Below, piece by piece: positions 7,236 through 30,338 of a DNA stretch of 35,450 nucleotides. This stretch comes from Hymenobacter sp. (GTDB lineage: Bacteria; Bacteroidota; Bacteroidia; Cytophagales; Hymenobacteraceae), in the NCBI GenBank assembly GCA_025356245.1, contig JANXUO010000489.1, positions 1 to 35,450 of the forward strand, read 5' to 3'. The position numbers and the translations under genes are program-made. Under the pieces are notes generated by a model. That model was not told the DNA's origin and did no database searches. It was given only the letters and a program-made list of their open reading frames with translations. Positions within the stretch are counted from its first letter, which is position 1; each line of letters starts with the position of its first letter.

Positions 7236-8498
7236 GCTGCCCCGCGCCCGGCTTGGGCGCGTTCGCACCATTCCCGCTCATTATCATGAACATCGCACTC
7301 ACCGTGCGGCACCTTCGGCTGCGGCTGGGGCTGCTGCTGGCGTTGCTGGCCGGGGCCGTGGGGCCGCTGCTGGCCCAAACGCCGCCCGACCTGAACCGCG
7401 TCGAGTTCTTCTTCGACACCGACCCTGGCTTTGGCAGCGGCACGGCCGTGGCCCTGCCCGGTCCGGCCGCGCCCACGCGCCTGGGCCTCTCGTTTCCGGT
7501 GCCGCTGGGCAGCTTGTCGCCGGGCTTTCACCGGTTGTTTGTCCGCTCGCGCGATGCGGGCAGTCAGTGGAGCCAAACCTTTGGGCGGTTGCTGTTTATT
7601 GACAACAGTGCCGCGCTGGCCGCGCCCAACCTGGCCGAAGTCGAGCATTTTCTGGACACCGACCCCGGCTTCGGCAACGGCAGCAGCACGGCCCTCACGG
7701 GCACGAGCGTGGGCAACCGCGTGGTACCGGTGAGCATCGGGAGCCTGGCGCCGGGCTTCCACCGCTTGTTTATGCGGACGCGGGACGTGAACAACCAGTG
7801 GAGCCAAACCTTTGGCCGCCTGTTTTTTGTGGATGATAATTCGGCCCTCACGGCCCCGAATTTGGCCGAAGTCGAGCATTTTACTTCGACACCGACCCTG
7901 GCTTCGGCAGCGGCACGGCCATTGCGACCGGCGCGGCGGCCACTTCCTACACGGCCCTGCCGGTGGCGGCCGATGCTTCGGCCCTGCCCGACGGCCCGCA
8001 CCGCCTGTTTGTGCGGACGCGGGACGCCAACGGCCGCTGGAGTCAGGTGCTGAACCGCGCCTTCGTGCGGAGCGGCTGCGCGGCTTCCGACAACTTCGCC
8101 GAAAACCGGCCCGCCGCCAGCTACGGCGGCAACCTGGGCGCGGCGGCGGCCGAAGCCGTGTTCAACGGCCGGGGCGAGGCCAACTTCTTCAATACCAACA
8201 CCGTGGAAGCCGACCTGGGCGCGGCTACCCGCACGGTGTCGGAAGCGCAGGTGAGCCTACGCAACCCCAACGGCGCGGCCGTGAGCGGCACCCTGACGCT
8301 GGAAATTTCGCTCAACGGCACCACGTTTACGGCGGCGGGTTCGGTGCCAGTGGCGCTGGCCGCCAGCCAGGCCGCGCCGCAGCGCGTGGCGCTGCCGCTG
8401 CCCGCTGCCGTGGCCGGGGTGCGGGCCGTGCGCCTGCTGCTTACCTTGCCTGGCATCAGTCAGGCCATTCGAATGACCGATGCGGGGGTGTGTTTTTT

Positions 8499-8674
8499 AG
8501 AGTTGTTACCAATTGTTAATCAGTGTATTATTTTCAAAGCGCGTCCTGCTGAGCTTGTCGAAGCATCTTCATCATTTCGTTGCACGGTCTACGCGAGGGG
8601 GTAAAGATGCTTCGACAAGCTCAGCAGGACGTTCGTCCATATCAAAGCAATGAGTAGCAAATTGTAGCAACTCT
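8499..8674. mobile_element. 176-bp non-autonomous MITE-like element inserted in a coding region
   Basis: Imperfect TIRs AGAGTTGTTACCAATTGTTAATCA / AGAGTTGCTACAATTTGCTACTCA, internal perfect 28-bp hairpin CGTCCTGCTGAGCTTGTCGAAGCATCTT (8542..8569 / 8604..8631), possible 3-bp TTT target duplication, AT-rich relative to the host gene. Confidence 0.8.
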
Positions 8675-9235
8675 TTTCAACTGCGTAAGTCCGGTCATCA
8701 CCTCTTTTGCGCCCACGAACGGGCCGGTGGGCACGGGCATCACCATCACGGGCACCAACCTGGGCGGCGCGACGGCGGTGCGCTTTAATAGCGTGGCGGC
8801 CACGGTGTTCAGCGGCGTGTCGGGCACGAGCGTGACGGCCACCGTGCCGGCCGGGGCCAGCACCGGCCCCGTCAGCCTGACCACGCCCAACGGCACGGCC
8901 GTGAGCGCCAGCAACTTCACGGTGCTTACCCCGGCCCCGACCATTGCCAGCTTCGCGCCCACGCCCGGCCCCGGCGGCCCCGGCGGCGGCGGCGGCCTGG
9001 CCGGCCCCGGCGGGCCGGTTGGCCCCGGCGGTGGCGGCGGCACGGGCTTTCCTGGCGGCCCTGGCGGCGGCGGCTTCCCCGGCGGCCCCGGCGGGCCGGG
9101 CAGCCCCGGCAGCCCGAACGGCCCCAGCGGCCCCAGCAGCCCGCCCCGCCCCCTGGCGGACCGTCGTGCGGGAATGTGGGCATCTCGACCAAAGACTGCC
9201 AGGACATCGTGGAAGCCATGAATGATGCCCGCGAC

Positions 9236-9269
9236 CTGGCCGGCACCGACAACTGGCCGGCACCGACAA
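9236..9269 (+). repeat. 17-bp tandem duplication (CTGGCCGGCACCGACAA x2) causing a frameshift
   Basis: Exact duplicate at 9236..9252 and 9253..9269. Removing one copy joins ...NDARDLAGTDN to KKDIPKKLGSLGLKYLGKFGLDNC. Confidence 0.9.
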
Positions 9270-12200
9270 TAAGAAGGACATTCCCAAAAAACTGGGTAGC
9301 CTCGGCCTCAAGTACCTGGGCAAGTTCGGGCTGGACAACTGCGTGATGCAGGCCATTTTTGCTGCCGGCGCCGACGGCGTGGGGGCCATTGGGGCCTCGG
9401 GCGCGTTGAAGTGGACGAACGCCGTGGCCTCGTCTGCGCAGTTTGGGCTGCGCCTGGGCAACTGCGCAAACTCGCCCGATGACCGCAGAATGGTGGACGA
9501 ATGGGTGGACGCGCTCGACTGCATCAAGGGCACTTCGGTGAAGGATGTCATCGCCTCGGCCTCGACCTGCGCGGCCAAGAAAATCGTCTGCACCCCCGTC
9601 ATCACCTCCTGCGACCCCAACGAAATCATCGGCCCCGACGGCTACCGGCCCCAGGGCTACGTGGCCGCCGTGCCGCCGCTGCCCTACAAGGTGCTCTTCG
9701 AGAACGACCCGAAAGCGGCCACCACTTCGGCCCAGCGCGTGAGCGTGCGGGTGCCGATTGACGCCAACCTCAACCCCCTCAGCGTGCAGCTCGGCAGCGT
9801 GGGCTTCCAGCGCCTGACGCTGGCCGTGCCCGCCGGGCTGGCCGCCTACAACACCATTTACCGCGTGGCCGACTCGGTGGGCGTGGACGTGGAAATGACG
9901 GCCGGCGTGGACATCGCGGCCCGCGAGGTGTTCTGGGAGTTCCAGGCCCTGGACCGCTTCACCGGCTTGGCCCCGGCCGACCCGCTGGCGGGCTTCCTGC
10001 CGCCCAACGACTCCATCGCCTCCGGCGAGGGCTTCGTGACCTACACCGTGCGGCCCCGGCGCGGCGTCGTCACCGGCGACTCCATCCGGGCCAAGGCCCG
10101 CATCGTGTTCGATTTCAACGACGTGATTGCCACCAACCGCGAGGTGAACATCGTGGATGCCGTGGCCCCCGTGTCGTTCGTGCGGCCCATCGCGCCCCGC
10201 GCCGACAACCAATACCTGCTGCGCGTGAGCATTCAGGACGACCCCGGCGGGTCGGGGCCAAAGGCGTTTGAGGTGTTCGTGTCGGAAGACAACGGACTGA
10301 CCTATAACGCCCTGGCCGGAGCCTTTGCCGGCGACACCGTGACCTTCAGCGCCCAACCGGGCCGCAGCTACTTCTTCTACTCCCTCGCCACCGACAACGT
10401 GGACAACCCGGAAGGCGACAAAACGACCTTTGAGGCCGTCATCAGCCCCTGCCCCGTGGCCACCAACGCGGTCGTGAGCAACATCACCAGCACCACGGCC
10501 ACGGTCGGCTTCGCCACGGCGGGGCCGCTCGTGTCGGGCGGCTACCGCGCCACGGCCACGCCCACCGGCGGCGGCCCGGCCGTCAGCGTATCCGGCCCGG
10601 CCTCGCCCCTCAGCCTGAGTGGCCTGACCCTCGGCACGGCCTACGCCCTGACCCTGACCAGCCGCTGCGGCACCGACTCGACCACCGGCCCGGTGCTGCT
10701 ATTCAGCACGTTGGGGCTGCCGCTGGCCACGGGCACCGTGGCCCCCACGAGCTACTGCCAGGGGCAGGACGTGGACGTGCCCCTCGGGGCCAACACGGCG
10801 GGCTTCGGGACGGGCAACCAATTCCGGGTGCAACTCTCGGACGCGGCGGGCGCGTTTGCGGCCACCGCGCCGCTGCTGGGCACCTTGCTGAGTAGCAGCG
10901 CCAGCGGCGGCGTGGTGCGGGCCAGCATTCCGGCCAGCACGCCGCCCGGCACCGGCTACCGGGTGCGCGTGGTGGCCTCGCTGCCCGCCACCACGGGCAC
11001 CCCCAGCGCCCAGAACCTGACCGTCACCGACGCCAGTGTGCTCACCTGGACCGGCGCGGCCGGCACCAGCAACTGGTTCGAGACCGGCAACTGGAGCTGC
11101 GGGCAGGTGCCCGACGCCACCCGCGACCTCATGCTGCCCGCCGGGCGGCCCCGCTACCCCGTGCTGCCCGCCACCGGCCCCGTGCCGGCCGCCCGCAACC
11201 TCACCCTGGCCCCCGGCGCGAGCCTGACGCTGGGCAACGCCCTGGCCCTGAGCGGCAACCTGACCAACAACGGCACCCTGAACGCCGGCAGCAGCACCCT
11301 CACGCTGGCCGGCATCACGCCCCAAACCCTGGGTGGCGGCGGCGGCACGGTGCTGTTCAATTTGACGCTCGACAACCCGGCCGGGGCCAGCCTGCTCGGC
11401 CCGCTGGCCGTGCGCCGGGTGCTGACCCTGACGGCCGGCAACCTGGCTTCGGGCGGCCGGCTCACGCTGCGCTCCGACGCCACGGGCACGGCCATGGTGG
11501 TGAACCCCGGCGGCGGCGGCCTCGTCACCGGCCCGGCCACGATGGAGCGCTTCATCGGCAACGCCAGCGGCGCGGGCTACCGGCACTACGCCTCGCCCAT
11601 GCAGGGCGGCACGGCCACCGTGCAGGAGTTCGCCGACGACCTCCCCGGCTTCAACCTGAACCCGGCCTGCAACACGACGGACAACACCGTGTCGCCGTTC
11701 CCGACGTTCTTCCAGTACGACGAAGCCCGCCTCGCCACCCCGGCCACCGACTTCTTCGACCGGGGCTGGCGGGTGCCGCTGGCCACCGAAAACCTCGCGC
11801 CCGGCCGCGGCTACACCGCCCAAACCGCCAACGCCACCCTCGTGGACATCAGCGGCACGCTGGCCCACGCCGACGTGAACCTGAACCTCACGCGGGGCGC
11901 GTTCGCCAACTCCGGCTGGCACCTGTTGGGCAACCCCTTCCACAGCCCGCTGGATTGGGATTTGGTGCCCGCCGCGCCGGGCATCGGCCGGGCGCTGTAC
12001 GTGTTCGTGCCCAGCGGCCCCTACACCGGCACCTACCGCAGCTACCTGCCCAACCCCGTGCCCGGCCAGCCCGGCATCGGCCAGAACGGCGGCACCAAGG
12101 ACGTGGCCGCCATGCAGGGCTACTTCGTGCGAAGCACGGCCAACGGCAGCGCCCTCGTGCTGCCCGCCGCCGCCCGCCCCAACACCTACGCCGACCCCCG

Positions 12201-12927
12201 GCCGCTGCTGCGCCTGCAAGTGGCCAACGCCGCCGGCCAAACCGACGAAACGGTCATCTACTTCGACCCCGCCGCCGCCGCTGGTTTCAGCCCGGCGCAC
12301 GACGCGCACCAGGTGCAGCGCAACGGCAACGGCTTCCCATCGCTCTGGAGCGAAGCCAGCGGCCCAACCGGGCCGGTAGCCCTGAGCATCAACGGCCTGC
12401 CCGACGTGCTGCGGGCTCCCAGCATTCCGCTGGGCGTGGTTGTGAGTGCTTCCGGCCCCCACACGCTCAGCGCCCCGGCGCTGCTCAACCTGCCCGCCGG
12501 CACCGAGGTCTGGCTCGAAGACCAAGCCCTGAGCCGCCGCCACAACCTGAGCCAGCAACCCCGCTACGCCTTCCAGATGGCGGCCAGCTTCCGGGGGCCG
12601 CGCTTCGTGCTGTGGCTCCAGCAGCGGCCCACCAGCACGGCCCCCAACGCCGCCCTGCAAGCCAACCTGCGCCTCTATCCCAACCCGGCCACCAGCACCG
12701 CCACCGTGGAGCTGGCCGGAGCCACCGGCCCCGCCGAGCTGACGCTCACCAATGTGCTGGGCCAAGTGGTGCAACGCCGCACGGCCACACCCCGCACCGG
12801 TGCCCTGTGCGAGGAACTCGACCTGCGCGAGCTGCCGGCGGGCGTGTACTTACTGCACGTCGGCACCGCCGCCGGGCACGCCACGCGGCGCTTGCTGCGC
12901 GAGTAGCGCCGGGGCTGCCCAACGGGC

Positions 12928-30163: not shown

Positions 30164-30240
30164 GGTGGGAGATACTGGATTCGAACCAGCGACCCCCTGC
30201 GTGTGAAGCAGGTGCTCTAAACCAACTGAGCTAACCTCCC
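30163..30240 (-). tRNA. tRNA-Val (anticodon CAC), 3' CCA encoded
   Basis: Minus strand GGGAGGTTAGCTCAGTTGGTTTAGAGCACCTGCTTCACACGCAGGGGGTCGCTGGTTCGAATCCAGTATCTCCCACCA; full cloverleaf. Confidence 0.93.
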
Positions 30241-30263
30241 GGTTGTATCCAAATGAAAAAAAG

Positions 30264-30338
30264 TGGGAGATACTGGGTTCGAACCAGTGACCCTCTGCTT
30301 GTAAGGCAGATGCTCTGAACCAGCTGAGCTAATCTCCC
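30264..30338 (-). tRNA. tRNA-Val (anticodon TAC), CCA not encoded
   Basis: Minus strand GGGAGATTAGCTCAGCTGGTTCAGAGCATCTGCCTTACAAGCAGAGGGTCACTGGTTCGAACCCAGTATCTCCCA. Confidence 0.94.

Follow-up and report, generated by a model that had tools for sequence, protein, structure and literature searches.

A 176-bp MITE at positions 8499–8674 of the window (the whole stretch of 35,450 nt that was analysed, which is contig C71 of a 4.38-Mb Hymenobacter MAG, genome G000, with 678 contigs and 82% completeness) was very probably mobilised in trans by an IS5-family transposase, with a REP-like dimer as its passenger. The element has defined ends and a target duplication, its empty site is preserved in homologues, further copies and an IS with matching ends were found, and REP-like dimers also lie within other transposon ends. 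New beyond the first-pass annotation of this DNA is the suggestion, drawn from sequence comparison, that a genus-wide REP-like dimer travels inside several IS5-type and other ends. The relevant features of the window are:

7855–8498, + strand, frame 1: upstream part of the host gene, repeat modules ending ...RMTDAGVC (tblastn with the 2636-aa orthologue, aa 285–506, 82% identity)
8496–8498, unstranded: left copy of the TTT duplication, closing a run of six T; the empty site shows a 179-nt insertion, 176 + 3
8499–8674, + strand: the MITE, 176 bp, with inverted ends and TTT/TTT, missing from orthologues; second complete copy in genome G114
8499–8525, + strand: left TIR, AGAGTTGTTACCAATTGTTAATCAGTG, which aligns to the right end and to the two ends of the G114 copies and is similar to the termini of the 969-bp IS of genome G051
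8542–8569, + strand: left CGTC-tagged REP-like unit, CGTCCTGCTGAGCTTGTCGAAGCATCTT, matched together with its partner in 101 of 101 Hymenobacter genomes; tag as in PMC3733652
8570–8603, unstranded: spacer between the REP units, the loop of the fold; a stop codon at 8602–8604 terminates the interrupted upstream frame (ORF 7963–8604)
8604–8631, − strand: right CGTC-tagged REP-like unit, inverted, read from the sequence
8648–8674, − strand: right TIR, AGAGTTGCTACAATTTGCTACTCATTG as read on this strand, from the sequence and the alignment with the G114 copies
8675–8677, unstranded: right copy of the TTT duplication, read from the sequence
8675–8957, + strand, frame 0: downstream part of the host gene, IPT/TIG domain (Pfam PF01833; orthologue aa 496–591, 81% identity)
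9343–12906, + strand, frame 1: C-terminal part of the host gene, DUF7619 (Pfam PF24595) and Por secretion C-terminal sorting domain (PF18962)

The TIRs are 27 nt long and imperfect, with the first 7 nt identical (AGAGTTG/CAACTCT), and the ends read AGAGTTGYTAC.... The arms at 8499–8569 and 8604–8674 are 77% complementary over 71 nt, and as single-stranded DNA the element folds into a long hairpin (z = −8.4) whose strength no shuffled sequence matches. Its GC content is 44%, against 73% in the flanks. It is shorter than 300 bp and contains neither an ORF of its own nor a transposase gene. When sequence, arms and fold were re-examined, the coordinates, ends, hairpin and frame arithmetic of the first-pass annotation all held as claimed. 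The MITE assignment of 8499–8674 is confirmed on sequence characters, namely small size, TIRs, target duplication, dispersed copies and ends in common with an IS.

The presence of the IPT/TIG, DUF7619 and Por sorting domains makes 'surface or secreted protein' a fair label for the host gene product. The closest homologue of its upstream part (genome G044, 86% amino acid identity) is a 2636-aa open frame that lacks the insert; the DNA across the site reads ...GACGCGGGCGCGTTTTTCTTCAACTGC... uninterrupted, and the protein, ...RMTDAGAFFFNCVSPVITSFAP..., matches the window codon for codon after 179 nt are removed. Six farther homologues (51–56% identity) are likewise insert-free, and these seven cases together establish that the insertion is real relative to the ancestor, with a size of 176 + 3 nt. 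Thus, neither the closest nor the farther homologues carry the sequence as coding DNA. It had been claimed that excision exactly restores the reading frame of a surface protein; removal of 179 nt does join the frame-1 segment (...TDAGVC) to the frame-0 TIG domain as in the orthologue, but in this assembly it does not restore the gene as a whole, which has at least two more breaks. An origin within the gene itself, as a regulatory or coding hairpin, is scarcely credible: the element's strong fold and the upstream frame that stays open into it would suit such a role, but seven homologues, one of them 86% identical, are in frame without it, copies lie elsewhere in another genome, and the GC content drops sharply at its edges. 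The empty site rules this reading out.

Mapping of the 2636-aa orthologue onto the window placed successive segments in frames 2 (to ~7891), 1 (7855–8517), 0 (8667–8954) and 1 (10717–12885, orthologue aa 1903–2630), with residues 592–1902 giving no alignment as one unit; by this mapping, at least two frame breaks besides the MITE affect the host gene in the present assembly. The extra frame changes fall at 7855–7891, adjoining a skipped repeat module, and at 8957–10717, in a Gly/Pro-rich stretch. Possible causes are decay after the gene had already died, recombination among its repeat modules, and an error of assembly. The host protein has probably been lost. Elsewhere in the window, two neighbouring tRNA genes on the − strand (30166–30338) are the sole Rfam matches.

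A search with the outer arms recovered a complete 176-bp copy in another, fragmented Hymenobacter MAG (G114, contig C149, 4425–4600), identical at 166 of 176 positions and flanked by AAT/AAT, together with a partial copy that runs from position 9443 until contig C143 breaks off, with 120/123 identity in what remains of it. The copies are thus few, with the window's own in G000 and, in G114, the complete one and the one cut by the contig end, so that the element is not the solitary sequence that would have spoken against the mobile origin claimed earlier. In the window's own genome no further copy with AGAGTTG ends was detected, and an exact end-pattern scan of GTDB contigs returned, among Hymenobacter, records of G114 only. 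Single matches to the end pattern in other bacteria (L077, L078, L080 and L081, the four that were checked) had no paired inverted end; the scan also gave one archaeal match (L082). A phage search gave no match to the element, and a plasmid search matched Hymenobacter records only, over the core region.

The second copy also bears on whether the insertion might be a product of the MAG assembler, through a misjoin of a repeat copy to the gene. The assembly is fragmented (678 contigs, 82% complete), two or more further frame breaks occur in the host gene, and several REP copies here lie at contig ends (L011, L012), all of which would fit a misjoin. However, a misjoin is not expected to yield exact element ends with a perfect 3-bp duplication at the junction, and an independent copy in the other MAG has equal length and ends with a different duplication. 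Since ends, length and independent duplications agree in this way, misassembly is very unlikely, and we retain transposition of a MITE as the explanation.

As for the transposase with matching TIRs that had been proposed as a check, a one-mismatch search with the end pattern matched, in genome G051, one end of a 969-bp IS (contig C3; L084:552–1520). This IS has the ends AGAGTTGTTATTGAC.../AGAGTTGTTATTACTTGTTAGCC, with AGAGTTGTTATT at both ends, is flanked by AAT/AAT, and encodes its transposase in two reading frames, with HTH_Tnp_4 (PF13613, slightly under the cut-off) and DDE_Tnp_4 (PF13359) matches. Its end AGAGTTGTTATTACTTGTTA differs by one base from the G114 MITE end AGAGTTGTTACTACTTGTTA, a likeness confined to the terminal ~20 nt, and the IS copy is itself broken. 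The assignment to the IS5 family is based on Pfam, and the subgroup is one that we take to be ISL2-like. ISL2-type elements use a 3-bp ANT target; the AAT of the G051 IS and of the G114 copy fits this pattern, and the TTT of the window copy does not. Related Hymenobacter ISs of ~980 bp have AGACTTGTT... ends and AAT or AGT duplications. Around transposases in G084 and G053 that are related to that of G051, no AGAGTTG-type ends were found, and no relative of the proposed transposase was detected in G000 or G114, both MAGs of ~82% completeness. By the likeness of its ends, the G051 element is a plausible source of the transposase, and an IS5/ISL2-type family would be the one that moved the MITE. 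The mobile origin put forward by the first-pass annotation is thus borne out by the empty site, by other copies with their own duplication and by an IS with matching ends.

What that reading overlooked is the identity of the hairpin, a CGTC-tagged REP-like dimer found throughout the genus, including inside other, unrelated transposon ends. The inner region at 8536–8634 was matched in all 101 genus genomes searched. It consists of two inverted copies of CGTCCTGCTGAGCTTGTCGAAGCATCTT, each starting with CGTC (8542–8545 on the + strand and 8628–8631 on the − strand), and inverted dimers were recovered across the genus. The CGTC REP superfamily (Di Nocera et al., 2013; PMC3733652) is characterised by the CGTC tag, a predominance of inverted dimers, high copy number and members in Bacteroidetes; its units have an 8–9 bp stem, a 4–5 nt loop and a 3-nt tail that is mostly CCA, and it occurs in at least five phyla with no associated transposase genes apparent, its mobility being stated as an open question (PMC3733652). 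By inspection, a single Hymenobacter unit in the common CGTCATGCTGAG form could make six of eight standard pairs, folding gives a 4-bp stem only, and its tail is CTT or CTC, not CCA. On account of this weak single-unit fold and non-CCA tail, we use the term 'REP-like' and claim no formal membership of the CGTC REPs. The exact dimer pattern was found in two of 396 Bacteroidota-level genomes, both Hymenobacter, and literature searches gave no match to the palindrome sequence itself.

For a wider survey of the dimers, 80 further loci were fetched, giving 109 non-redundant dimers, and the 60 nt outside each side were compared with shuffled flanks. The outer inverted arms exceeded the 99th percentile of the shuffles in 41 of the 109, where ~1 was expected; ~62% of the surveyed REP-like dimers had no recognisable outer ends. 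Loci had been picked by likeness to the window core or by exact A1 ends, and these proportions are not genome-wide frequencies. At least six end-types surround REP-like dimers, different copies having different outer inverted arms; lengths are near constant per end-type and are given for elements with a REP-like dimer as cargo:

End-type A1: GAAGCTGTTTARRAAGTC; element 150–152 bp; exact 3-bp duplication in 23 of 28 (28 including the IS)
End-type A2: GAAGCTGTTTGAGTTA; element 148–149 bp; exact 3-bp duplication in 3 of 5
End-type A3: GAGCGTGTTTGGGAATT; element 151–152 bp; exact 3-bp duplication in 4 of 5
End-type B: TAAGTAGTCGTGCAAAAGTAA; 164–166 bp around a REP-like dimer (L016, L024, L032, L175, L202)
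End-type B2: TAAGTGCTTG..AAATTAAAC; clear outer arms
End-type C, that of the window: 176 bp; exact 3-bp duplication in 2 of 2
End-type D: TTAGGCTGTGTCTGAAAAGTC; single case

Exact 3-bp duplications were present in 32 of 40 elements from the four end-types with mapped boundaries, as compared with 2–3% at outward-shifted positions; for B and B2, whose outer arms are clear, no such duplication was seen. Thirteen genomes searched for A1 ends yielded many pairs, with 87 ends in G001 and 97 in G030. Among the 20 A1 pairs that were read, the contents were the same REP-like dimer or variants of it, a GAGACGC hairpin or a GTCATCCTGAGC hairpin; some pairs were shortened forms that keep REP remnants, and one was an IS. 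This IS is 915 bp long and belongs to the IS5 family, matches DUF4096 and, weakly, DDE_Tnp_4, and has an ATT duplication.

Several further loci are recorded here as observations. In G001, A1 ends enclose a GAGACGCA..TGCGTCTC hairpin and no REP-like dimer (L267, L270), and neither locus has an exact 3-bp duplication; in G085, they enclose a GTCATCCTGAGC..GCTCAGGATGAC dimer, another REP-like palindrome (L278, L279). Further REP-like dimers in G000 (L003, L004, L008), outside the counts above, have outer arms that resemble A2. At ~1040–2024 of L102 (G034, contig C59), an IS with AGACTTGTT ends lies between the two units of a CGTC REP-like dimer, occupying their spacer, and has ATT on both sides, a reverse nesting that is possibly a step towards composite elements.

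These data bear on the chief alternative, namely insertion of the dimer alone, by a tyrosine transposase (RAYT) or an unknown one, with a palindrome or MITE already in place as the target. REP dimers within longer palindromes in Anabaena variabilis and Halothiobacillus neapolitanus have been phrased as insertions into targets (PMC3733652), many of the surveyed dimers lack outer ends, and Y1 transposase genes are present in 43 of 61 genomes. Yet none of 30 Y1 loci, most taken with 1.5-kb flanks and some shortened by contig ends, had a REP-like unit at ≤4 mismatches. Moreover, the end-to-REP distance and the total length are near constant per end-type, as would follow if the dimer had been captured once and the whole unit then transposed, and no clean REP-free target was seen among the A1 pairs read, where the shortest (L264, L276) retain REP remnants. 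We regard separate insertion of the dimer as improbable, though deserving more weight than a misjoin. The window's own genome has a Y1 (IS200/IS605-type) transposase gene (C515:1001–1345; L133), with a weak 5-mismatch REP-like match nearby.

Under the preferred reading, capture and transposition as a unit, an IS5-family (ISL2-like) DDE transposase would act in trans, recognising the AGAGTTGYTAC ends and making 3-bp target duplications. The interior, an inverted dimer of the CGTC-tagged REP-like palindrome, would be a passenger, with dimer and ends copied together as one unit. Landing of this unit in the surface-protein gene would have shifted the frame, ended the upstream frame at 8604, and cut off the TIG domain and the secretion-sorting tail. 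By extension, Hymenobacter REP-like dimers appear to have spread largely as passengers in transposon ends. Whether transposase-less CGTC palindromes are interchangeable passengers in several DDE-IS end-frames, with hairpins and ends recombining as separate modules, we hold to be evenly balanced; this broader proposal is based on the variety of hairpins within A1 ends, three kinds or more, and on the occurrence of a single kind of REP-like dimer in six or more end-types. A snap-back core possibly helps the two ends to meet, favouring module exchange. The dimers without outer ends (~62%) must have required another route or have decayed. For a CGTC-type dimer carried between IS5-type ends, the element is a clean case, with its empty site, the 3-bp duplications and an end-matched IS; defined substrates are now at hand for a direct transposition test. 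It also calls for caution in reading REP copy numbers, since a family may owe its abundance to the activity of several ISs that are unrelated to one another.

Bacterial MITEs such as NEMIS/Correia, Nezha and MITEAba12 are shorter than 300 bp and non-coding, and have TIRs, short target duplications and ends common to an autonomous IS. The element described here is alike in size, lack of coding capacity, TIRs, short duplication and IS-matching ends, whereas its interior is a REP-like dimer, also found in unrelated end-types, instead of an IS remnant. IS5-family members (ISL2-like, IS427-like) encode a DDE_Tnp_4 or DUF4096 transposase in two frames, measure ~0.9–1 kb and make 3-bp duplications; the 176-bp element lacks a transposase and matches them in its ends only. 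REPINs and RAYTs (PMC3116915) provide a parallel in that two inverted REPs and the spacer between them fold as one long hairpin, but no tyrosine transposase gene was flanked by the Hymenobacter repeat at the 30 loci. With the CGTC REP dimers (PMC3733652) there is agreement in the CGTC tag at the outer end of the unit, the inverted dimers and the high copy number, while the dimers described here differ in lying between IS5-type ends with 3-bp duplications, in the weak unit fold and in the CTT/CTC tail. The closest precedents are GTAG-15 of A. variabilis and CGTC-1 of H. neapolitanus, in which a longer outer palindrome likewise surrounds a REP dimer; in those species the palindrome was interpreted as the target, and no target duplications or related IS were described (PMC3733652). 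In contrast to those cases, Hymenobacter offers duplications, an empty site, matching ISs and several end-types around the same dimer. Taken from these sequence comparisons, hitchhiking in IS5-type MITEs suggests a concrete answer, within Hymenobacter, to the question of how CGTC REPs move.
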